Origin: Nitratidesulfovibrio sp. SRB-5
GTDB taxonomy: Bacteria; Desulfobacterota; Desulfovibrionia; Desulfovibrionales; Desulfovibrionaceae
NCBI RefSeq assembly: GCF_019931275.1
Contig: NZ_JAIOTY010000001.1
Coordinates: forward strand, 62,001 to 126,000
DNA length: 64,000 nt
Direction of reading: 5' to 3'
Below are positions 38,127 through 54,924 of the stretch, piece after piece; position 1 is the first letter of the stretch, and every line of letters begins with the position of its first letter. Both the position numbers and the translations under genes were made by a program. The notes beneath the pieces are model-generated. The model was not told the origin of the DNA. It was given only the letters and a program-made list of their open reading frames with translations, and made no database searches.

Positions 38127-38516
38127 CCCTTTTCTCCCCTGTCTTTCTTCTTTTTCGCCAGCACCCGTCGGTGGCGGCGTAACTGCCCCGCTTTCTTCGC
38201 GCAGATGGCATGCCCCTTGCTTTTACCCTGTGGGGCGGGTCTTGGTTTGCGCGATATTGCGCGATAGCCGCGCCGTGCGGCCGTCACGCGGTTTGCGTGC
38301 CGCGTGCGCCTGCCCGCGCCGCCCGGTGCGGCCCGCCCCGTTTTCAATTTCTGCACGCTGGCGTCCAATGGGCCGGTGCGTCAGTGTGCCTGCCAGGCGG
38401 GATGCTGGGCGCGCGCCGTCTGCGCGATTGCGTGTCGCGCTGCCGTGGCAGCCCGCCCCGGCGGCATCATGCCTGTTCCGTGTCCGCACCGCCCGGTGCC
38501 AACCCCAGAGGTGCCC
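38127..38516. other. Spacer before the sensor kinase; no gene seen
   Basis: 390 bases. Starts with a pyrimidine-rich stretch (CCCTTTTCTCCCCTGTCTTTCTTCTTTTTC) just after the receiver stop, which lacks a hairpin and so is not a clear terminator. Nothing else recognisable. Confidence 0.4.
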
Positions 38517-43941: not shown

Positions 43942-43950
43942 CGGGAGTGT

Positions 43951-44242
43951 CGCGCACCCCTTGCGGGTGCGTGGGTTGAAACCGCAGGTCTTCTTTGGCC
44001 TTGGAAACGGTGATTCGTCGCACCCTTCGCGGGTGCGTGGGTTGAAACAAAATCCACGAAAAGCATATACCGGACTGCGTCGTACCTTTTCGTTGGTGCG
44101 TGGGTTGAAACATCCGTCACGTGAAGCATCAAGCCGATTACCCCGGTCGCACCCCTCGCGTGTGCGCGGGTTGAAACCTCGGGGGCATGTTGTCGCGATA
44201 CCAGCCTCGCGTCACACCCCTCGCGGGTGCGTGGGTTGAAAC
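43951..44242 (+). CRISPR. Decayed orphan CRISPR array, five type I-C-like repeats, four spacers
   Basis: Repeats at 43951-43982, 44017-44048, 44079-44111, 44146-44177 and 44211-44242, about 32 nt, each ending (G/C)GTGGGTTGAAAC or CGCGGGTTGAAAC and holding the CRISPR-type hairpin CGCACCC/GGGTGCG. They differ from each other: the third has CGTACCTTTTCGTTGG with one extra base, the fourth GTGTGCGCGGG, the fifth GTCACACCCC. Spacers are 34, 30, 34 and 33 nt with unrelated sequence. The end GTTGAAAC and size match type I-C/I-B repeats. No cas gene, no clear leader. A perfect hairpin GCCAACGC-CGAA-GCGTTGGC follows at 44244-44263. Confidence 0.88.
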
Positions 44243-44442
44243 AGCCAACGCCGAAGCGTTGGCCCCTTCCGTCCGGTCGCTCTCCCTCAGGTGGAGCTCC
44301 ACGCGGCTCCGCATTCGAGCATTGGGGCGGCCCGTGTTCGCCCGTTTCCGCCGCGTCATCGTCTCGCCTCCAATGTTCAACCAATGTCCAATGCGCGCCC
44401 GGCGCATCTCCAGTGCTTTCCGGGCGGTCTTCGGAGCCATGC

Positions 44443-45142: not shown

Positions 45143-47749
45143 TCAATGGTACCGGCCACTCAGGAAATTATCCGCAAAGCGCTGCACCGCCGCTTCGTCC
45201 ACCATCAGCATGTCCATCTGCCGGGTGACGATGAGCAGCCGCCCCAGTTGCACAAGCCGCTCGGCGATCTGCGGCGCCGCGAATTTCTGGAAGCGTGCGG
45301 TGACCATGTCGCCGCGCACTTCCACATGAAACCCCAGCGCCTCCAGGATGATGCCTATGCAACGCACCCTGCGGTTCTTGCGCGTCTCGTCCGCCGCGCC
45401 GCCCTTGAACTGGAAGGTGATGTAGTTCTTGTTCATGGTCTGGCCGCAGTAGGCATCGAGAACGCCGTAATGATAGCCCACGCGTGAACTGAAATTCAGG
45501 TACTTGTCGGACACCAGCGCATAGCTGCGGTCTCCGAAGCGCTGGCCGTGCATGGTGGGCGGCTCGATCATGTGGCGACTCATGACGGACAGAAAGCCGC
45601 TCATGTCCACCGGGCGCGGTTCGCGGTGATGCACGGCCGGGTCCAGCATGCCTTCAAGCAGGGCCTTGAACGGTGCGGAAACCGCCTGCTCCGGGTGTAC
45701 ATAGGGGCCGTCCACCTCGGCCAGCCCCCCGCCAAGGTCGATGACGTGCAGGTCCAGCGGCACCGGAGCCTTCATTTCCACGGCCACGGCCCCGGCATCG
45801 GAGACGGTGTCCGACAGCCGGAACATGTGGGCATAGGACAGTTCGTGCACGAAGCGCATCACGTCGTGGATGGTGCGGCACGCGTCGGGGGTGAAATTGT
45901 CCGCCTTGGGGTCGTGCAGGTTGAGGGGGGAGACCAGCGCTGCCACCTGCTTGAGCAGGTTGTGGATGGGCGTGTCGCGCAGGCACACGGCGCGTTCCTC
46001 GCGCAGGGGCAGCAGTTCTTCCACCCGGCCTTGATAGACGCGGCAGGAGAAGGCATCCACGGTCACCTGCGTGCCCACGGGCAGCGTGCCCATGGCCCCC
46101 GGCGCGTTGACGATGGTGGGCACGCCGAATTCACGCGCCAGCGACGCCATGTGTCCGGTGATGCTGCCCGCCTCGGCCACGATGGCCTGGGCGCGCTGCA
46201 TGACCAGCACGTAGGACGGCGAGGAGTGCGTGGCCACCAGTATGCCCCCTTCGGGGAACAGGGCCAGTTCCTCCGCGTTGGCGGGCTGCACCACCGGCCC
46301 GCAGCCCACGCCGGGGCAGGCGGGCTCGCCGCCGTGCAGCAGCACCGGGTAGCCTTCGATGAGCGGGGTGGTGCGCGCTTCACCGCGCGGGGTGGTGGTC
46401 AGCGGGCGGGCCTGGAGCAGCAACAGCCTGCCAGCCGGGTCCAGCGCCCATTCCACGTCCTGCGGCACGCCGTAGTGCGCTTCCACCCGCATGCCGATGC
46501 GGGCCAGCTCCACGGCCTGGGCGTCGGTCAGGCAGGGGGTGTCGCGCTGGGATTCGGGCACGTCTTCTTCGCGCAGGCGGCCATCTTCTCCGGGGATAAG
46601 GCGGTGCGCCTTGCAGACCACGTTGCGCGAAAGGGGGTGGGGTGCATCCTCGCGGCTGAACAGCCAGGTGTCCGGCTCCATCTCTCCGTCCACCACGGCG
46701 GCGCCCAGCCCCCATGCGGCGTTGATGACCATGGAATCGGACAGCAGATCCACCGGGTGGCGGGTGAACAGCACCCCGGCGGCCACGGAATCGACCATTT
46801 CCATGCAGGCCACGGCCATGGCGCTGGCGTCCAGGGTGATGCCCTGATGCAGGCGGTACACGATGGCCTGGGGCATGAACAGGCTGGCCACCACCCGCTT
46901 CCACGCATCCACCACGCCGTCGCGGCTCACGTTGAGCACCGACAGATACTGCCCGGCGAAGGAAACGTGGCTGTCCTCGCTGAGCGCGCTGGAGCGCACG
47001 GCCAGACGCAGCGTGGCGCCTCTTTCCCCGGCGTCGGCGTCGGGCCCGAATGCCTCGTCGCAGGCGGCGCGCAGGGCATCCACCACGTCCGGCGGCACGG
47101 TGGCGGCGGCGAACAGGGCCTGGATGTCGTCGGCCACGTCCAGCACGCTTTCCGGGTCTTGTGGGTCCACATCGCGCAAGCTTTTGCGTATGTTGCCCAT
47201 CAGCCCGTCATGCTCCATGAAGGCGTAGTAGGCGCGGGTGGTTATGGCAAAGCCGCGCGGCACCGGCACCCCCACGCGCGAGGTCAGTTCGCCGAGGTTG
47301 GCGCACTTGCCTCCCACCCAGTCCACCATGTCGCCGTTGATGGCGGCAAAGGGCAGGGCGTAGGCCTCCACCGTGGCCTGGGGGCGGCTTTCCATCAGCT
47401 CGGTGATTTCGGCGTTGATGCGTTCCACCACCCCGGGCAGGGACGGGTACGCATCGCCCGAGATGGCATTGAGGGCGGTGGCCATGCGCATGGCGTGGAA
47501 CACCGACCGCGTGGCCTGCGAACGCAGCCAGGTGGCCCCGAACAGGGTGCACCCCGCGATCTTCTCGTCCATGTCCGCGAGAATGCGCGCGAGCTCGGCG
47601 TTGGAGTCCAGCAGGTCCTTGAAGTGGGCGTAGCGGGCGCGGAACACCCGCATGACCCGCTCGCGCGATTCGGCATCCACGGAGCGCCTGTGGCCGAACA
47701 GCCAGCGCAGACGTTCCAGCAGTGATACGGGCGGCGGCGCGGCCAGCAT
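45143..47749 (-). CDS. PEP-synthase-like protein: ATP-grasp and phosphohistidine domains with an unrelated C-terminal domain
   Basis: 868 residues. Residues 1-135 are a helical N-terminus; about 140-480 is the PEP-synthase/PPDK ATP-grasp domain (GGKCANLGELTSRVGVPVPRGFAITT, AVRSSALSEDSHVSFAGQY, INAAWGLGAAVVDGEMEPDT); about 500-590 is the swivelling domain with the phospho-His (SITGHMASLAREFGVPTIV, His about 534). In PEP synthase the next part is a large PEP/pyruvate TIM barrel; here the last 270 residues contain no such motifs and include MSGFLSVMSRHMIEP, SDKYLNFSSRVGYHYGVLDAYCGQTMNKNYITFQFKGGAADETRKNRR. So it probably phosphorylates something other than pyruvate. It lies 3 bp after the AAA+ regulator gene in the same operon. 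Function otherwise unknown. Confidence 0.85.
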   Translation of the reverse strand: MLAAPPPVSLLERLRWLFGHRRSVDAESRERVMRVFRARYAHFKDLLDSNAELARILADMDEKIAGCTLFGATWLRSQATRSVFHAMRMATALNAISGDAYPSLPGVVERINAEITELMESRPQATVEAYALPFAAINGDMVDWVGGKCANLGELTSRVGVPVPRGFAITTRAYYAFMEHDGLMGNIRKSLRDVDPQDPESVLDVADDIQALFAAATVPPDVVDALRAACDEAFGPDADAGERGATLRLAVRSSALSEDSHVSFAGQYLSVLNVSRDGVVDAWKRVVASLFMPQAIVYRLHQGITLDASAMAVACMEMVDSVAAGVLFTRHPVDLLSDSMVINAAWGLGAAVVDGEMEPDTWLFSREDAPHPLSRNVVCKAHRLIPGEDGRLREEDVPESQRDTPCLTDAQAVELARIGMRVEAHYGVPQDVEWALDPAGRLLLLQARPLTTTPRGEARTTPLIEGYPVLLHGGEPACPGVGCGPVVQPANAEELALFPEGGILVATHSSPSYVLVMQRAQAIVAEAGSITGHMASLAREFGVPTIVNAPGAMGTLPVGTQVTVDAFSCRVYQGRVEELLPLREERAVCLRDTPIHNLLKQVAALVSPLNLHDPKADNFTPDACRTIHDVMRFVHELSYAHMFRLSDTVSDAGAVAVEMKAPVPLDLHVIDLGGGLAEVDGPYVHPEQAVSAPFKALLEGMLDPAVHHREPRPVDMSGFLSVMSRHMIEPPTMHGQRFGDRSYALVSDKYLNFSSRVGYHYGVLDAYCGQTMNKNYITFQFKGGAADETRKNRRVRCIGIILEALGFHVEVRGDMVTARFQKFAAPQIAERLVQLGRLLIVTRQMDMLMVDEAAVQRFADNFLSGRYH

Positions 47750-47752
47750 GGG

Positions 47753-50542
47753 TTACCTCCGTGGCGGTACCGGCACGCCGCCTTCCGTCAGCACGTACCG
47801 GGTGGCGGGCCCCTTGCCCACCTTGCGGATGAAGCCCTTGCGCACCATGTCCTGCAGGTCGTACTGCGCGGTGCGCACGGGTATCTCGTTGCCCACTATG
47901 TCCTGATACTGGGTGCGGGTGATGCCGCCGTTGCGGCTGATGAATTCCCAGGCGGCGCGCTGGCGCGGGTTCAGCGCGGAGAGCGGCGGCGTGCCCGCGC
48001 CATCCTGCCCGTTGTGTGGCTGGCGACCGTTGCCGGAGTTGCCGCCCGCGCGATCATGCCTTGCCCGTGCGCCGTGCATGGCCCCGGCGTCAGACCAGTC
48101 CGGCCCGCCGTTGCCGGTGCCGCTGGCCACGATGCGGCCACTGACCGGGTCGTACATGGTGGCGCCCGCCTGTGCGCCGGGCATGCCTTGCGGCGTCTGG
48201 GATCCGTACGGGACGCCATACGCGGTGCCGTCGCCGGGGTAGGGTGCGGCGGGTTGTTGCGCCTGCGGGTAGGGGGGCTGGCCCGCGTGCGCCGGGGCCG
48301 GACTTGGCGGCAGCAGCGCCCCGTGCGACAGGGTGGGGTCCAGTTCCGCGCCAAAGCGCAGGTCTTCGGCGTACAGGGTGTCCCCTTCGGCAAAGGCCAC
48401 GGCGCGGGTGATGCAGTTCTTCACTTCGCGCACGTTGCCCGGCCAGCCGTAGGCCAGCAGCTTTTCCAGCGCCCCGCGCGAAAGGCCCATGGCCGGGCGC
48501 TTCAGGGTTTGCGCGGCCTGCTTCAGGAAGTAGTCGGCCAGGGCGGGGATGTCCTCTCGCCGATCGCGCAAGGGGGGCGTGTTGATGGTGATCACCGCCA
48601 GCCGGTAGTACAGGTCTTCCCGGAAGGTGCCCTGACGGGCGCATTCCTTCAGGTCCACGTTGGTGGCGGCGATGATGCGCGCATCGAAGGGCACTTCGTC
48701 GTCGCTGCCCAGGGGGCGGATGCGCCGCACCGACAGGGCGCGCAGCAGGGCCTGCTGCACCTTGGGCGAGGCGTTGCCGATTTCGTCGAGGTGCAGCGTG
48801 CCGCCGTCGGCGGCCACGAAGGCCCCCTTGCGCTCGCCCCGCGCCTCGGAAAAGGCCCCCTTCACGTGGCCGAACAGCGCATCCAGCAGCAGGTTCTCGT
48901 CCAGGGCGCCGCAGTTGATGGAGATGAACGGTCCGCCCACCCTGTCGCTGGTCATGTGGATGGCCTCGGCGGTCAGTTCCTTGCCTGTACCCGTTTCGCC
49001 GATGATAAGCACGTCGGCCTCGACGCCGGCGGCCTTGCGGATCATGCCGCGCAGGCCGCGCACCGATTCGCTGGTGCCCACGATGCCGGGCATGGTGTCC
49101 TGCGGCGAAAGCTGGCTTTGCGGCTGCTGTTGCGCGATTTCCGTGTCCAGGCATACCCGCTGCCGTCGCCGGGTGGACTGGATGTGTTCTTCGCGCAGGC
49201 GCAATTCTTCATTGCGCGCCTGCAGGGCGGCCAGCATTTCGTTGGTGGTCTGGAGCAGGGCCTCCGCTTCCGGGTGCACCCGTTCCAGATGGATGGGAGT
49301 GAGGTCGCCCGATTCCAGCTTGCCGCTGGCTTCCTCGGCGATGCGGTGCAGCGGTCCGGCGATGCCGCGTCCCAGCATGGCCAGAATGAAGGCGGCCACA
49401 GCGCTGGCGCACAACCCGAACACGAACAGCGCGCCATACAGCTTGTAGGACGCGGCCATGGCCAGGAAGCTGGTGTCGGTGTACGCGATGCCGCCCACCA
49501 CCACGGTGCTGGCGCCGGGGCCTTCGCTGAAGGTGACCGGCGCGTAGCTGATGTAGAAGGCCCGGTTCATGGGCGAGGGGTCTTCCAGCATGGTGCCCAG
49601 GCGGCTCTGGCCGGAATTGCCGGACTGCACTTCTGTGACCATGCCCCAGTATCGCTCCTGCTCCGGATTGGGACGGAAGGCCGCCTCGAAGCCGGGGCGT
49701 CCGAAGTCGCCGCGCATGCCCGAACGCACCGTATCGGTGGACAGGTCCAGGTTGGGATGTTCCGGCGATTCAGACTGGAACAGGATCCATCCGTGGGAGT
49801 CGAAGAAGAAGCTGCGGTGCTTTTCCGTTTCTTCCGGAAAGATGTACAGCGGCGACCGGCGCGATGCGTAGACCGACAGCACGTTGCGCAGGGCCAGCAT
49901 GTCCACCGACAGGGTGAGCAGGCCGGTCTGGTTGCCCGCGGCGTCCAGTACGGGCGTGGTAAGCCGCAGCACGTGCATGGACAGCCCCTGCACGGTGCCC
50001 GCCGTGGGCACGGAGGGGTAGACCACCTCGGTGGGGGCGGAAATACGCACGAAGCCCGGCTTGGGCTCCTGCGTGTTCTGGCGGGTCAGCGGGCCGAAAC
50101 GGGTGGCCAGGGCCTGCTCCAGCGGCACCATCCATACGTCGCGGCCGGTGTTCAGCAGCAGCAGGCGGTTGTCCGGCGTGGAGCCCTGATAGGCGATTTC
50201 GCGGTACAGGGTGCCCATGGTCTCGGCGCGAGTGCGCAGATGGTGGGCCAGCGAGGCGGAGGAAATGTCGGTGCGGGCAAGGTAGAGCAGCTCGCGCCGG
50301 GCCTGCTGGAGCACCTGTTCCATTTCGTGGGCCTGGGACAGGGTGGCCAGCAGCGAACTGCGCCCCAGCGCGTCGTGCAGGAAGTTCTGGGAAATGCGGT
50401 GGGAGATCATTCCGCTGATGATCAGCAGCAGCATGAACGCGGGCAGCGCCGCGAAGAGCAGCCGTTTGGCGATGCTCCATTCCGAGAAATTGCCTTCCAG
50501 TCGGAACAGCGTGCCGAACAGCGGCGGCCTGTAGTAACGCAT
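47753..50542 (-). CDS. Membrane-bound AAA+ sigma54-activator-type regulator with GAFSEA loop and winged-helix C-terminus
   Basis: 929 residues. TM1 at about 28-48 (LLFAALPAFMLLLIISGMI), a sensor of about 300 residues (Cache-like; PVLDAAGNQTGLLTLSVDM, FFFDSHGWILF), TM2 at about 375-395 (LFVFGLCASAVAAFILAML), HAMP, and a sigma54-activator AAA+ core: Walker A GETGTGKE (about 514-521), GAFSEARGERKGAF at the position of GAFTGA (about 564), Walker B LHLDEIGN, R-fingers REDLYYRLAVITI. A Pro/Gln/Gly-rich linker leads to a winged-helix C-terminus (NPRQRAAWEFISRNGGITRTQYQDIVG, VRTAQYDLQDMVRKGFIRKVG) instead of the usual Fis HTH. GGAGAAGG is well spaced before ATG 50542. Divergent from a -24/-12 promoter at 50915. 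Confidence 0.9.
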   Translation of the reverse strand: MRYYRPPLFGTLFRLEGNFSEWSIAKRLLFAALPAFMLLLIISGMISHRISQNFLHDALGRSSLLATLSQAHEMEQVLQQARRELLYLARTDISSASLAHHLRTRAETMGTLYREIAYQGSTPDNRLLLLNTGRDVWMVPLEQALATRFGPLTRQNTQEPKPGFVRISAPTEVVYPSVPTAGTVQGLSMHVLRLTTPVLDAAGNQTGLLTLSVDMLALRNVLSVYASRRSPLYIFPEETEKHRSFFFDSHGWILFQSESPEHPNLDLSTDTVRSGMRGDFGRPGFEAAFRPNPEQERYWGMVTEVQSGNSGQSRLGTMLEDPSPMNRAFYISYAPVTFSEGPGASTVVVGGIAYTDTSFLAMAASYKLYGALFVFGLCASAVAAFILAMLGRGIAGPLHRIAEEASGKLESGDLTPIHLERVHPEAEALLQTTNEMLAALQARNEELRLREEHIQSTRRRQRVCLDTEIAQQQPQSQLSPQDTMPGIVGTSESVRGLRGMIRKAAGVEADVLIIGETGTGKELTAEAIHMTSDRVGGPFISINCGALDENLLLDALFGHVKGAFSEARGERKGAFVAADGGTLHLDEIGNASPKVQQALLRALSVRRIRPLGSDDEVPFDARIIAATNVDLKECARQGTFREDLYYRLAVITINTPPLRDRREDIPALADYFLKQAAQTLKRPAMGLSRGALEKLLAYGWPGNVREVKNCITRAVAFAEGDTLYAEDLRFGAELDPTLSHGALLPPSPAPAHAGQPPYPQAQQPAAPYPGDGTAYGVPYGSQTPQGMPGAQAGATMYDPVSGRIVASGTGNGGPDWSDAGAMHGARARHDRAGGNSGNGRQPHNGQDGAGTPPLSALNPRQRAAWEFISRNGGITRTQYQDIVGNEIPVRTAQYDLQDMVRKGFIRKVGKGPATRYVLTEGGVPVPPRR

Positions 50543-50844
50543 GCCTTCTCCCTGCCAGGGGTGTGGGGCGGAGGCCGCCCGTAGCGGAACCGGGGCGCCG
50601 GGGGCCGGGACGGGCGACACCGGGGAGGTTCGTCGTTTCACGCCTCCGGGGCTGGTGTGCTCCCGGTGGCGCAAGGGCCATTGCGGACCGCCGTGCCAGC
50701 GCATGCCCGCTGCATTCGCATGAAGCGCACACCTTTGCTTATGCGCATTTCCCCCGTCTTTCGCAACACGCGGCACGGGGCGAAATGCCGACAGCAGCAG
50801 AGTGAACTTTGTCGTGTGGCGGTTGAGAAATTATGTACAAGGCT

Positions 50845-50873
50845 TTGCGCGATCGTGCAAGCGCAACTTGCGC
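50845..50873. promoter_or_regulatory. Two adjacent palindromes, candidate activator-binding sites
   Basis: TTGCGCGATCGTGCAA (50845-50860, two mismatches) is followed directly by the perfect GCGCAACTTGCGC (50861-50873). They lie 42 to 70 bases upstream of the -24 element, in the right place for enhancer sites of the divergent AAA+ regulator. Confidence 0.6.
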
Positions 50874-50914
50874 GAAAAGAAATTAATGTATGTTTTGTCG
50901 TGTGTTAAAATGTT

Positions 50915-50930
50915 TGGCATGCGGATTGCT
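50915..50930 (+). promoter_or_regulatory. Sigma54 (-24/-12) promoter of the exporter operon
   Basis: TGGCATGCGGATTGCT: GG at 50916-50917 and GC at 50928-50929 with the required 10 bases between, matching TGGCAC-N5-TTGCT. It precedes the operon 51110-54813 by about 180 bases of leader, and lies beside the AAA+ regulator gene. The upstream spacer (50543-50844) holds nothing else recognisable. Confidence 0.85.
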
Positions 50931-51109
50931 AGCTCTGGGTCGCGCGGCGTCAACCGCGCAATGCACAGGACCAAAACCGCGCTCCAAGGGGGGGTGCGGG
51001 TGGACACAAAGGCGGGCTCCGACGCCGGACGGGATCGCAACAAGCGAGGACGGGCCGGAGGCGGAAGCCGAAAAGGGCGGCAGGGCTGCCCGCAACCTGG
51101 AGGATGCAC

Positions 51110-51403
51110 ATGAGAAGGATCAAGACGCTGTTCATGTCGTTGCTGACGTTCGTGCTGGCCATTCCCGGCCTGGCGCTGGCCGCTGGCGGCGGTGGCGCAC
51201 CCGTGGTCATCGTGGCCGACACCCGCAAGCTGGACGGCGTGATGGCCTGGTGGGCCAACCTGTACAACGAGAGCCATGTCCAGTTCACCACGCTTACCAT
51301 CATCCTGATCCCGTTGGTGGGCGTGCTCTTCGGCGTGCTTGCCGACATCGTGATGAACTGGATCGGCATCGACCTGAAGTCCCGCGAACTGGCCGAGCAC
51401 TAG
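51110..51403 (+). CDS. Small membrane protein of the exporter operon
   Basis: 97 residues, not recognised. An N-terminal signal peptide (MRRIKTLFMSLLTFVLAIPGLALAAGG), a short exported part (VADTRKLDGVMAWWANLYNESHVQF), then one membrane helix (TLTIILIPLVGVLFGVLADIV) and a short charged cytoplasmic tail. GGAGG lies six bases before ATG 51110, so this is preferred to the ATG at 51104. It is the first gene after the sigma54 promoter and lies 28 bp before the TauE/SafE gene; it is probably an accessory subunit of that exporter. Confidence 0.75.
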   Translation: MRRIKTLFMSLLTFVLAIPGLALAAGGGGAPVVIVADTRKLDGVMAWWANLYNESHVQFTTLTIILIPLVGVLFGVLADIVMNWIGIDLKSRELAEH

Positions 51404-51431
51404 GCCGCGCCCGCACCAAAGGAGAACAACG

Positions 51432-52484
51432 ATGGAATGGCTCTATATTCTCATGCCCATCGCGGGCGTTAAGATCTTCTGGCCCGGCCTGATCATTCTC
51501 GGCGTGGGCGTCGGCATCATCGGCGGCTTCTTCGGCATGGGCGGCGCCTGGATGGTTACCCCCGGCCTGAACATCCTCGGCTTCCCCATGGCCTTCGCCA
51601 TCGGGACTGACATCGCCCACATGGCGGGCAAGTCGCTCATCTCCACCATGCGCCACGGCAAGTTCGGCAACGTGGACTACAAGCTGGGGATGATCATGCT
51701 GGTGGGCACCGTCGTGGGCTTCGAAGTGGGCGCCCAGATGGTCATGTGGCTGGAACGGATAGGCAACGTCGAAAAGGTGGTGCGCTGGATCTACATCGCG
51801 CTGCTTGCCGCCATTGCCTGGATGGTCTTCCACGACGTGGCCAAGCGCCGCGAAAAGGAACGCCAGGCCGCCGCGCGTGGTGAAACGCTGGAAGCGGGCG
51901 CCACGGGCGTCGAGTGGCACAAGGCCCTGCACAAGATCAAGATTCCCCCCATGGTGCACCTGAAGGAAGCGGGTGTGTACTGCTCCGCGTGGCTGCCCAT
52001 CGTCGTCAGCTTCGCCACCGGCTGGCTGGCCGGCATCCTGGGCATCGGCGGCGGTCTCATCCGCATGCCCGCCCTCATCTACCTCATCGGCTGCCCGACC
52101 CACGTGGCCGTCGGCACCGACCTGTTCGAAGTCATGATCTCCGGCCTGTACGGCGCCGCCACCTACACCTACAAGGGCCGCACCGAACTCGTTGCCGCCA
52201 TGATCATGCTGGTGGGCGCTTCGGTCGGCGCGCAGGTTGGCGCCGTGGCCACCAAGTACATCAAGGGTTACGGCATCCGTATCGCCTTCGGCCTCGCCGT
52301 GGTCGGCTGCGCCCTTTCGATCCTGATGAAGCTCGTGCAGCCCTGGTTGCCCCAGTTCAAGAGCGTGCTCGACGCTGGCGCCACCGTACTGGTGCTGGGC
52401 CTGGTGTCCTGCATGTCGCTGTACATCTTCGTCCGCATGATTCAGGGCGTGAAGATGGAACTGGCCCGCAAGAAGGCCGCCTAG
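51432..52484 (+). CDS. TauE/SafE (TSUP) family anion exporter
   Basis: 350 residues, about eight transmembrane helices in two repeats. The repeat signatures GVGVGIIGGFFGMGGAWMVTPGLN and GWLAGILGIGGGLIRMPALIYLIG, each with the G-x-G-G-(A/G)-x-(M/I)-x-x-P-x-L pattern, identify the TSUP family, which exports sulfite, sulfonates or related anions. A hydrophilic loop (about 130-175) joins the halves. AAAGGAG precedes the ATG. In sulfate reducers this family is often linked to sulfur anions, but the substrate is not visible here. Operon: downstream of the small membrane protein and upstream of the lipoprotein. Confidence 0.93.
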   Translation: MEWLYILMPIAGVKIFWPGLIILGVGVGIIGGFFGMGGAWMVTPGLNILGFPMAFAIGTDIAHMAGKSLISTMRHGKFGNVDYKLGMIMLVGTVVGFEVGAQMVMWLERIGNVEKVVRWIYIALLAAIAWMVFHDVAKRREKERQAAARGETLEAGATGVEWHKALHKIKIPPMVHLKEAGVYCSAWLPIVVSFATGWLAGILGIGGGLIRMPALIYLIGCPTHVAVGTDLFEVMISGLYGAATYTYKGRTELVAAMIMLVGASVGAQVGAVATKYIKGYGIRIAFGLAVVGCALSILMKLVQPWLPQFKSVLDAGATVLVLGLVSCMSLYIFVRMIQGVKMELARKKAA

Positions 52485-52515
52485 CCGTACCGCACGCGAG
52501 AGAAGGAGAAAACAT

Positions 52516-53121
52516 ATGAGACGCTTTCTGCTGATGCTGCTCGTGGTGGCGCTGCCCCTCGGCCTGGTGGGCTGCGGTGAATACGGCAAGGTGGACCAGG
52601 GCCGGGTGATCGCATACGACAAGAACGCGAAAACCGTCACCCTGATCCAGGACAAGGCCATGGAGCCGCTGAACCCGGACTACTCCATCCTGCCCCCGCA
52701 CACCTACAAGCTGCCCGTGGATCCCGCCGAAATGGGACCGGAGCCCAAGGCCGGTCAGCGCATGAAGCTGGATACCAAGACCAACATCATCCGCATCTTC
52801 AACACCAAGACCCAGGCGTTCGAAGACATCACGTTCAAGATGGTGGACCTGCAGGAGAACATCGACCGCAACCATCCGCTGGTGTACGACAAGGCCACGG
52901 AAGCCGCGAAGAAGTTCCCCATGGTTGACCGCGACAAGAAGACCGTGACCATCTATTCCGGTCGCCAGAAGATGCTGTGCACCATCTCGATGCCCGACGA
53001 ATACTTCGCCCTGCCCGATTCCACCTGGGACGCCGGTGACGAAGTGCGCGTGTACTACAAGGCCGAGGGCGTGTCCCTGCGCTTCATGAACATCACCAAG
53101 ACCGACATCTTCAAGAAGTAG
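52516..53121 (+). CDS. Lipoprotein of the exporter operon (DUF4881-like)
   Basis: 201 residues. N-terminal lipoprotein signal with lipobox LVGC (MRRFLLMLLVVALPLGLVGCGEYG). The mature part is beta-rich (VDQGRVIAYDKNAKTVTLIQD, GQRMKLDTKTNIIRIFNTKTQ, KKTVTIYSGRQKMLCTISMPD, EVRVYYKAEGVSLRFMNIT), reading like a repeated OB- or barrel-type fold. It resembles a Desulfovibrio lipoprotein family (I recall DUF4881). Probably a periplasmic partner of the exporter. Strong SD (GAGAAGGAG) before the ATG. A 10-bp GC hairpin follows at 53131. Confidence 0.8.
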   Translation: MRRFLLMLLVVALPLGLVGCGEYGKVDQGRVIAYDKNAKTVTLIQDKAMEPLNPDYSILPPHTYKLPVDPAEMGPEPKAGQRMKLDTKTNIIRIFNTKTQAFEDITFKMVDLQENIDRNHPLVYDKATEAAKKFPMVDRDKKTVTIYSGRQKMLCTISMPDEYFALPDSTWDAGDEVRVYYKAEGVSLRFMNITKTDIFKK

Positions 53122-53130
53122 CCACAGGGC

Positions 53131-53154
53131 GGCGGGGCTGGCGACAGCCCCGCC
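53131..53154 (+). other. GC-rich hairpin inside the exporter operon (attenuator-like)
   Basis: GGCGGGGCTG pairs perfectly with CAGCCCCGCC around GCGA (a GNRA tetraloop), just after the lipoprotein gene and followed by CCTTCCCCCCCTT. It may lower expression of the downstream genes or stabilise the upstream mRNA. Confidence 0.6.
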
Positions 53155-53267
53155 CCTTCCCCCCCTTCCGCCCCGCCATCACCGCGCAAGGCCATGCATG
53201 GATGACGCGATGGCGGGCCGGAACGGGCGGAAGAAGCCCGGCGGACATCAAGACAAGGAGCAACACC

Positions 53268-53492
53268 GTGGAAGACCAGATGGATTACGCAACCACCGTG
53301 GCCCACAAGCTGCTGGTGCTGACCATGAACCTGCTGGCCATCGCGGCGGTGTGCGCGGGCATGTACCGTGCCTCGTTCGTGCCGGACGAATTCACCCCGG
53401 TGTTCTTCAAGACGTTCTTCGCGGTGCTGGTTCCCTCGCTGGTGCTGGGCTGGTGCGCCAAGCGCTGGCTGCGCACCCGGGGCCTGGCGTGA
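53268..53492 (+). CDS. Small two-helix membrane protein
   Basis: 74 residues, GTG start with AAGGAG seven bases upstream. Two hydrophobic segments: KLLVLTMNLLAIAAVCAGMYRA and FFKTFFAVLVPSLVLGWCA, with a charged C-terminus. Not recognised. Its stop overlaps the next gene's GTG (GTGA), so the two are translated together and probably form a complex. Confidence 0.75.
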   Translation: MEDQMDYATTVAHKLLVLTMNLLAIAAVCAGMYRASFVPDEFTPVFFKTFFAVLVPSLVLGWCAKRWLRTRGLA

Positions 53493-54325
53493 CCAGATCG
53501 GTGCATCTGGCGCGCCTGCATCGGCGTTCCGGCAAGGTGGCGCTGCTGCTGCTGCTGGTCTGCGCGCTCAGCCTGGTGGACGGGCTGGTGGGCAGGATGC
53601 AGCAGGGCTTCAACCGCACCGACGCGCTGCCCGGCGGCGAATACCCGGTCAGCGGACCCCTGCCTCCCCAGACCGAAACCCTGGAGGACATGGTCATCGA
53701 GGGCGGCACGGACGACAGGCAGGTGCGCCTTGTGCCCTATGAAATCTATTCCGGCTACTGGCTGGGCGGAAAGATGTGGCGCGGCGCCATCAAGGTGGGG
53801 GCCAGCCCCGCCTCGGGCGAATACGTCATCCGCGTGCACGACAAGTACGGCGAAAAGCAGAACCCCACGCTGATCTTTGCGGTGGTGGTGTGGCCCGACG
53901 AGGCCACCATGAAGGCCAATGCGCCTGAACGGCTTACCCGCTGGTTCGGCATCGATCCCTTTGGCCTGTCCGCGCTGGTGCTGCCCTTCGCCCTGCTGGC
54001 GGGGCTGGGCAACTTCATGCTGGGCCGGGCCTGGGGCCGGGCCCTGCTGGCAGAGCGCAGCGCGGAAATCTACAAGCTGCTGCCCGCGCCCGATGGCGGC
54101 GGCAAGGACGTCACCTTCGGCCTTGGCGTGCAGCACGGGGCCAGTCCCGGCATGCGCTGCCGCATCCACCGACCCGACGGCACCCCGGTGGGCGAGGCGC
54201 GGGTTGTGGAATGCACCGCGCGCGACTGTGTGGCCCGCGTGCCCCATGATCTGAACGTGCAGCCGGGCGACGTGGTGACCTTGCCGGACATGGCGCCCCA
54301 GACAGAGGCAACGCACGGCGCATAG
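53489..54325 (+). CDS. Membrane protein with exported domain, function unknown
   Basis: 278 residues. Basic N-terminus and first helix (GKVALLLLLVCALSLVDGLVG), an exported beta-rich part of about 110 residues (QVRLVPYEIYSGYWLGGKMWRGAIKVGASPASGEYVIRVHDKYGEKQNPTLIFAVVVW), a second helix (LSALVLPFALLAGLGNFMLG), then a cytoplasmic domain (ERSAEIYKLLPAPDGGGKDVTFGLGVQHGASPGMRCRIHRPDGTP). GTG start overlapping the previous stop. Not recognised; conserved position between the exporter and a receiver suggests a signal-transducing partner. Confidence 0.72.
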   Translation: MTRSVHLARLHRRSGKVALLLLLVCALSLVDGLVGRMQQGFNRTDALPGGEYPVSGPLPPQTETLEDMVIEGGTDDRQVRLVPYEIYSGYWLGGKMWRGAIKVGASPASGEYVIRVHDKYGEKQNPTLIFAVVVWPDEATMKANAPERLTRWFGIDPFGLSALVLPFALLAGLGNFMLGRAWGRALLAERSAEIYKLLPAPDGGGKDVTFGLGVQHGASPGMRCRIHRPDGTPVGEARVVECTARDCVARVPHDLNVQPGDVVTLPDMAPQTEATHGA

Positions 54326-54402
54326 GGGCCGGGCAGTGGACGTGCCGGGTTGGCAGGGGTGGCGGACTGGCGGAATTTTCGGGCCGAGGCCCAGGAGGGA
54401 AC

Positions 54403-54813
54403 ATGGATTGCCCGGAATTGCTGAAAAACTGCCGCATCCTGCTGGTGGACGACGAGGATGGTTTTCGTGACGCGCTGTTGCGCCGCATGCGCAAGCGCGG
54501 CATGACCATGGACGGCGTGGCCAGCGGCCGGGCCGCGCTGGAGTGGTTGGCCGGGCAGGCCGTGGACGTGGTGATCCTGGACATCCAGCTGGGCGACATG
54601 GATGGCCGCGACGTGCTGCGCGAAATCCGCAAGTCCGGCGGCGAAGACCCGGCAGTGATAATCCTGAGCGGGCACGCCTACACGGACATCGCCCTGGACG
54701 CCATGCGTGCCGGGGCCAGCGACTACCTGCTCAAACCCTGCCCGGTGGAGGAACTGCTGGAGCGCATCGAGACCGCGTACGAGCAGGTGCTGGAGCGCCG
54801 CGCGGCGCAGTAA
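54403..54813 (+). CDS. Response-regulator receiver protein at the end of the exporter operon
   Basis: 136 residues, receiver only: ILLVDDEDGFRDALLRRMRKRG, phospho-acceptor Asp in VVILDIQLGDMDGRDVL (about residue 60), IILSGHAYTD and LLKPCPVEEL. CCCAGGAGGGAAC gives a strong ribosome site. Close in type to the receiver at 40337 (same DDE-GF and LLKPC-EEL motifs). No kinase in the operon; the membrane protein upstream or a distant kinase may signal to it. Closed by the terminator at 54925. Confidence 0.93.
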   Translation: MDCPELLKNCRILLVDDEDGFRDALLRRMRKRGMTMDGVASGRAALEWLAGQAVDVVILDIQLGDMDGRDVLREIRKSGGEDPAVIILSGHAYTDIALDAMRAGASDYLLKPCPVEELLERIETAYEQVLERRAAQ

Positions 54814-54924
54814 CGCCAGCGCGGTTGCGCCCACTGGTGCGGTGGTGAATTTTGCCGGGCAGCCCCGGCACGGCGTGACCCGCCGTCAATGTTCCACGAC
54901 AGCATACGCCCATCCCCCTCGTAG

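Follow-up and report, generated by a model that had tools for sequence, protein, structure and literature searches.

Organization of the module

The window analysed here is a stretch of 64,000 nucleotides from Nitratidesulfovibrio sp. SRB-5 (contig NZ_JAIOTY010000001.1, positions 62,001 to 126,000 of the forward strand). Between positions 45143 and 54813 it contains a module built from two divergent parts. The minus strand carries the genes of a phosphoenolpyruvate (PEP)-synthase-like protein and a membrane-anchored sigma54 activator. The plus strand carries six genes, including that of a TauE/SafE-family (TSUP) permease. An earlier note on this DNA had proposed this layout; all the genes were found in place, and the intergenic gap between the activator and the operon is 561 bp. 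The module is composed of the following features.

45143–47749, minus strand: PEP-synthase-like protein of 868 residues, with a helical N-terminus, an ATP-grasp domain (PPDK_N), a phosphohistidine domain and a C-terminal domain spanning residues ~580–868
47753–50542, minus strand: membrane-anchored sigma54 activator, with two hydrophobic stretches (located by eye) around a dCache-like region, an AAA+ domain with a GAFSEA loop, and a winged-helix C-terminus
50845–50873 (coordinates by eye): candidate activator-binding site with the half-sites TTGCGC, GCGCAA and TTGCGC, 42–70 bp upstream of the -24 element
50915–50930, plus strand: -24/-12 (sigma54) promoter, TGGCATGCGGATTGCT
51104–51403, plus strand: DVU0150-family small membrane protein (NF040783, 150.5 bits, above the NCBIfam cut-off of 70)
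51432–52484, plus strand: TauE/SafE-family (TSUP) permease (PF01925, E 1e-42, 146.8 bits, above the Pfam curated cut-off of 32.6)
52516–53121, plus strand: DUF4881 protein (PF16222, E 6e-87), a probable lipoprotein with a lipobox-like LVGC recognized by eye
53268–53492, plus strand: probable membrane protein of 74 residues
53489–54325, plus strand: protein of 278 residues with two hydrophobic stretches (by eye)
54403–54813, plus strand: single-domain response-regulator receiver (PF00072, E 8e-28), the clade-specific last gene

A GTG codon at 50776 provides a possible longer start for the activator gene. The DVU0150-family protein is the probable partner of the permease and weakly resembles DUF1634 (E 0.036). 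A sequence search gave no credible relative of solved structure for the permease, and a Pfam search returned no match for the 278-residue protein. No plus-strand terminator-like site was found inside the operon. Two overlapping sites of this kind stand right behind the receiver gene (54824–54845); across the region, terminator-like sites are not enriched (4 found, 6.4 expected from shuffles).

Conservation across related loci

Related loci were collected through the DVU0150 family (NF040783), which was found in 14 of 39 related genomes, counting that of the window, and in 94 of 199 genomes of the order, at 99 places. Stretches of up to 20 kb were taken around each place, and the set including the window comprised 103 loci. 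These loci share kinship, so the counts do not represent independent events. A permease gene follows the DVU0150-type gene in 101 loci by a distance rule, and the remaining two (L085 and L141) also have a permease. The DUF4881 gene is present in all 103, the 74-residue protein in 102 and the 278-residue protein in 96, some of the misses being contig ends.

The activator is divergent from the operon in 95 of the 103 loci, lies a few kilobases off in two (L132 and L150) and was not found in the stretch taken for the other six. Rare adjacency of regulator and exporter operon in related genomes would have counted against the module of the earlier note; at 95 of 103 loci, adjacency is the rule. The arrangement of divergent regulator, operon and -24/-12 site is real and conserved beyond the genus. 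The composition of the operon needs one amendment. All six plus-strand genes exist, but the sixth, encoding the receiver, lies downstream in the operon in 21 of the 103 loci and does not belong to the core; the signaling through its own receiver that the earlier note proposed is not supported as a core feature of the module. A universal-stress (Usp) gene stands before the DVU0150-type gene in at least 23 of the 103 loci, counted by a distance rule that missed at least L087 and L090, and all five such proteins tested matched PF00582.

The sigma54 promoter and the activator

The -24/-12 promoter TGGCATGCGGATTGCT, recognized in the earlier note, is well supported. The window contains two copies of the strict pattern TGGCAYN5TTGCW, against 0.18 expected from shuffling, and the whole 4.12-Mb genome contains 18, against 3 for the reversed control. 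In 91 of the 103 loci the 700 bp before the first gene include a site matching at least 10 of the 11 letters, compared with 72 of 2060 stretches drawn at random from the same loci, which possibly include true sites, and 12 of 2060 shuffles. Activator and promoter also disappear together: four of the six loci without an activator in the fetched stretch also lack a sigma54 site of at least 9/11, as does one of the other 97 (p=1.7e-5, without correction for relatedness). Between 44900 and 55200 the search gave no sigma70-like site, where 1.4 would be expected. The other strict sigma54-type site of the window, TGGCATGCCCCTTGCT at 38206–38221 on the plus strand, lies away from the module.

In 71 of 96 loci, two or more copies of the half-site TTGCGC stand upstream of the sigma54 site, compared with 12.7% of shuffles. 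The repeats at 50845–50873 are conserved in the genus alignment and make a candidate activator-binding site. At 22 loci more than 500 bp separate the best sigma54 site from the DVU0150-type gene downstream. These long 5' leaders were considered as RNA elements and rejected, as the leader hosts a Usp-like reading frame in each of the 21 examined. A search of Rfam at the gathering threshold gave no match at 43–56 kb of the window.

The AAA+ domain of the activator matches Sigma54_activat (PF00158, E 2e-58), the sigma54-interaction domain of bacterial enhancer-binding proteins. Its sigma54-contact loop reads GAFSEA in place of GAFTGA. Among 101 relatives, the loop is GAFTEA in 52, GAFSEA in 34, GAFTGA in one, and other or unmatched in 14; a glutamate replaces the second glycine of GAFTGA in 94, eight of them beyond the GAFTEA and GAFSEA forms. 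GAFSEA has been counted among the loop variants that keep function (PMC4641369). The C-terminus gives only weak winged-helix matches, with HTH_12 (E 0.0054) below the Pfam cut-off, and a Pfam search found no Fis-type DNA-binding domain. The N-terminal region matches dCache_1 with E 0.0012 and 18.9 bits, below the Pfam cut-off of 45. Together with the two hydrophobic stretches, this match supports a membrane-anchored periplasmic sensor, in line with the membrane-bound regulator proposed earlier. The protein thus shares with NtrC-type enhancer-binding proteins an AAA+ domain with a sigma54-contact loop, but differs from them in its GAF(T/S)EA-type loop, winged helix and integral-membrane sensor. 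The activator faces the operon and very probably controls it.

Relation to the predicted DVU0151 regulon

The earlier note knew of no description of this combination of genes. Part of it had in fact been predicted: Table 1 of Kazakov 2015 (PMC4641369) lists DVU0151 of Desulfovibrio vulgaris Hildenborough as a sigma54 activator with a GAFSEA loop and a winged helix, controlling DVU0150–DVU0146. The window holds the same elements, namely a divergent one-component sigma54 activator that carries GAFSEA and, in place of a Fis domain, a winged helix, and a sigma54 promoter before a DVU0150-type gene that heads an operon classed there under 'transmembrane transport'. The description of DVU0151 in that paper includes an N-terminal region of unknown type, and the apparent dCache resemblance of the activator adds a little to this. 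The paper goes no further than predicting the regulon. Neither 'phosphoenolpyruvate' nor DVU0152 occurs in its main text; the PEP-synthase-like neighbor, its family and the links to dsrA and the nitrate cluster described below are therefore absent from that main text.

A search of the open-licence literature with the tags DVU0145, DVU0147–DVU0152 and orthologue tags turned up only PMC4641369, and the passages of PMC4215793 examined contain nothing on the module's genes. No statement of the dsrA, TSUP or nitrate links of the PEP-synthase-like family was found in the same literature. New here are the PEP-synthase-like family with a domain of unknown type, the finding that within the phylum it is almost confined to dsrA genomes, its tendency to lie among TSUP permeases, receivers and dCache kinases, and its tie to nitrate-resistance genetics.

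The PEP-synthase-like protein

The PEP-synthase-like protein contains an ATP-grasp domain (PF01326, E 3e-93) and a phosphohistidine domain (PF00391, E 5e-19), in common with PEP synthase, pyruvate phosphate dikinase (PPDK) and rifampin phosphotransferase. It differs from these enzymes in its third part. The PEP/pyruvate-binding barrel is absent by Pfam search, and a conserved domain of 290 residues at the C-terminus stands in its place. The protein stays below the equivalog cut-offs for PEP synthase and PPDK (343.5 bits, cut-off 598; 325.1 bits, cut-off 739.75). It is therefore no PEP-synthase-like kinase in the literal sense of the earlier note, since the PEP/pyruvate domain is missing.

The C-terminal domain has no Pfam match. 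Its AlphaFold model, computed from a 75-row alignment, has a predicted local distance difference test (pLDDT) score of 87, and Foldseek found no match in the PDB at E<=0.001, the best being 2plg at E 0.003. The model of the whole protein has a pLDDT of 77 and matches PEP synthase, PPDK, rifampin phosphotransferase, HpeI and pyruvate kinase at E<=0.001. The domain is strongly conserved, and six of its residues (H, D, H, E, H and D) are invariant. Of the 133 family members that the loci contain, 130 have the HDxxRxxHE motif and 123 match a simple pattern of the phosphohistidine motif. In the phosphohistidine domain, H533 is invariant in 12 aligned rows. A record from N. liaohensis contains a protein 98% identical to that of the window.

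Distribution in the phylum

The C-terminal domain, dsrA and the DVU0150 family were searched for in the same sample of 296 genomes of the phylum. The domain was found in 110 genomes and dsrA, above cut-off, in 146. Both are present in 108 genomes and the domain without dsrA in two (p=1.1e-44; relatedness is ignored, and shared ancestry inflates this and the preceding p-value). The DVU0150 family scores above cut-off in 56 genomes, all 56 of which also have the domain. Within the phylum searched, the PEP-synthase-like family is nearly restricted to dsrA genomes. One genome of the window's own family (G059) has a short, below-cut-off dsrA match only and lacks both the PEP-synthase-like and the DVU0150 families, as if lost together.

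Clustering with TSUP permeases, receivers and kinases

The window's genome encodes seven PEP-synthase-like proteins and has 12 TauE matches; copy numbers elsewhere reach at least eight among the matches listed. All seven PEP-synthase-like genes lie 3.2–9.2 kb from a TauE match, in four clusters. Three of these clusters have a strict sigma54 site, from the 18 of the genome, directly before the TSUP gene or operon; the fourth (L189) has no site of at least 9/11 upstream. Outside the window's family, TauE was found at 19 of 23 PEP-synthase-like loci, and all 19 proteins were confirmed as PF01925. The 23 loci are the first match of each other taxonomic family among the matches listed, and two lie on contigs shorter than 7 kb; the search used four Pfam-checked seeds and possibly missed distant TauE genes. 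In TSUP trees, which were used for grouping the TSUPs of other genomes only, these neighbors fall into the DVU0150-linked clade and a second, longer clade.

Signaling genes recur in the same surroundings. Over 44 chosen loci, receivers are neighbors in 38 and histidine kinases in 34, and all five neighboring kinases tested contain a dCache domain above the Pfam cut-off. The function of TSUP proteins in sulfate reducers is not predictable from sequence, according to PMC5840216.

Several of the clusters have individual layouts. In L188 (G000:C2:808000-827900), Usp, TauE, Alph_Pro_TM and three PEP-synthase-like genes share one strand behind a sigma54 site. In L187 (G000:C4:9000-28900), two pairs of receiver and PEP-synthase-like genes lie on either side of a histidine kinase gene with a dCache-like region. 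This group faces a TauE gene behind an 11/11 sigma54 site, with an NtrC-type regulator and a kinase-like gene alongside. A sodium:sulfate symporter-family gene (PF00939) lies near a module copy in another family (L194:4270-5763), and genes of this type occur in five of the 44 loci.

A paralogous cluster linked to nitrate resistance

The fourth cluster, L189, consists of genes for DUF169, TauE, a 234-residue protein, a phosphonate-binding-like protein, a histidine kinase, a 119-residue receiver, a PEP-synthase-like protein and a dual-specificity phosphatase. By annotated family, it has the genes and order reported for the nitrate cluster Dde_0597-0605/DVU0251-DVU0245 (Korte 2014, PMC4001038), and its PEP-synthase-like protein has the same C-terminal domain as that of the window. 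The window module does not have this gene set and order. It shares with the nitrate cluster a TauE-family permease, a single receiver and a PEP-synthase-like protein. The nitrate cluster differs in its accessory genes (DUF169, phosphonate-binding-like protein, histidine kinase and phosphatase) and, as seen in L189, lacks the DVU0150 gene, the winged-helix activator and a sigma54 site of at least 9/11 upstream.

In Korte 2014, transposon mutants in DVU0246 (PEP-synthase-like), DVU0247 (receiver), DVU0250 and DVU0251 (TauE) grow unaffected by 100 mM nitrate, and the authors suggest a leaky thiosulfate transporter. In D. vulgaris, a polar effect on DVU0245 does not account for the phenotype of the DVU0246 mutant. 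We take these mutants as the best available evidence that a PEP-synthase-like protein of the family is needed for the action of its permease, and that the direction is inward. Carried over by analogy to the window module, the same dependence would apply there.

A CRISPR-like array beside the module

Outside the module, positions 43950–44243 of the window contain five copies of a 34-nt repeat at a spacing of 63–66 bp, mostly ending in GTGCGTGGGTTGAAAC. Four copies are 68–94% identical to the reference copy. Judged from the repeats alone, they look like a short, partly degenerate CRISPR array.

Interpretation

We give about an even chance to the reading that this is a sigma54-controlled module of sulfate reducers for the transport of an anion, specifically an oxyanion and probably by uptake, in which the permease needs the phosphohistidine protein. 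The membrane-anchored activator would sense a periplasmic signal through its dCache-like domain, bind the TTGCGC repeats with its winged helix and fire the -24/-12 promoter. The operon would then supply the TauE-family permease, its small membrane partner and three envelope proteins. Since the PEP-synthase-like family often accompanies TSUP transporters, it is probably part of the control of anion traffic. Its members would be phosphohistidine proteins with a new acceptor or output domain that work with TSUP permeases, often along with histidine kinases and single receivers, and without which the permease could not move its substrate. The receiver may tune the PEP-synthase-like protein, not transcription. 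The cargo would most likely be a sulfur oxyanion (thiosulfate, sulfite or sulfate), probably moving inward. The gene content, its conservation, the promoter, the joint loss of activator and promoter, the overlap with dsrA and the TSUP clustering were observed here, and the shared insertion phenotype was found by others in a paralogous cluster; the DNA site, the signal, the cargo, its direction and any phosphotransfer step are what we infer.

A wider proposal is tentative, and we regard it as possible but doubtful: that TSUP permeases of sulfate reducers are gated or energized by a phosphohistidine protein that is charged by ATP, assembled from PEP-synthase parts and equipped with a new output domain. 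Single receivers and dCache histidine kinases would set this control, and its purpose would be to take up sulfur oxyanions. The window module, driven by sigma54, and the nitrate cluster would be two versions of this control, a kind not described before.

Several points weigh against the main reading. Only 71 of the 103 loci have the PEP-synthase-like gene behind the activator, and 38 genomes with dsrA lack the family. Six hand-picked further loci of the window's family (L213–L218; two from genomes whose DVU0150 locus lacks the PEP-synthase-like gene, four second copies) show no TauE in stretches of ~20 kb; in L214, L215 and L218 a receiver gene lies within 500 bp and a dCache histidine kinase nearby. 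The dCache_1 match of the activator falls under the Pfam cut-off. The nitrate cluster, judged by its copy L189, is a distant paralogue: the C-terminal domains are 31% identical, the accessory genes differ and no sigma54 site of at least 9/11 lies upstream. In PMC4001038, the species disagree on the phosphatase gene, the DVU0245 mutant lacking nitrate resistance (fitness -6.04) and the G20 gene Dde_0605 scoring high (2.08); for DVU0250, the pooled results agree poorly with those of single mutants; and the thiosulfate defect is mild and given as unpublished data only. Polarity could explain the permease and receiver mutants. The open-licence literature, searched with the tags DVU0145 and DVU0147–DVU0152, yielded no experiments on the module's genes or their D. 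vulgaris counterparts.

Three other explanations deserve consideration. The module could export sulfite or sulfonate, with a periplasmic signal inducing the operon, the toxic anion being removed, and the PEP-synthase-like neighbor adjusting carbon metabolism. The export of an anion advanced in the earlier note rests on the Pfam name of PF01925, 'sulfite exporter', and the Usp gene before the DVU0150-type gene in at least 23 loci would fit a stress role. However, the limit on predicting TSUP function from sequence (PMC5840216) applies here too, the PEP/pyruvate domain is missing, and loss of the paralogous permease protects from nitrate, which suggests entry and not exit (PMC4001038). We regard an exporter as unlikely. 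We also think it rather unlikely that the PEP-synthase-like protein is a metabolic kinase that phosphorylates the permease's cargo, as rifampin phosphotransferase does its drug, with the C-terminal domain as the substrate site. Its ATP-grasp and phosphohistidine domains match those of rifampin phosphotransferase and PEP synthase, and the high conservation and invariant H, D, H, E, H and D of the C-terminal domain are active-site-like. Yet its neighbors are TSUPs of unlike subfamilies, receivers and histidine kinases, which suggests a general regulatory partner over an enzyme for one substrate.

The genes might, lastly, be separate sulfate-reducer genes gathered in one chromosomal district, with the activator–operon pair as the only functional unit. 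The incomplete adjacency of the PEP-synthase-like gene and the several family members with no TauE detected nearby point that way. This explanation is very improbable, given TauE near 7/7 family members in the window's genome and 19/23 across families, the single strand shared by the L188 genes behind one sigma54 site, and the one common phenotype of the nitrate-cluster insertions (PMC4001038).

The proposed dependence of the TSUP permease on a phosphohistidine protein bears on the entry of sulfur oxyanions into sulfate reducers and on nitrate inhibition, a lever against oil-field souring, both of which are poorly understood. If TSUP permeases have the PEP-synthase-like protein as an obligatory partner, a function could be given to a large family of unannotated proteins and a mechanism to the nitrate-resistance mutants, and the unassigned TSUP permeases, of which D. 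vulgaris has nine according to PMC5840216 and the window's genome 12, would become testable.

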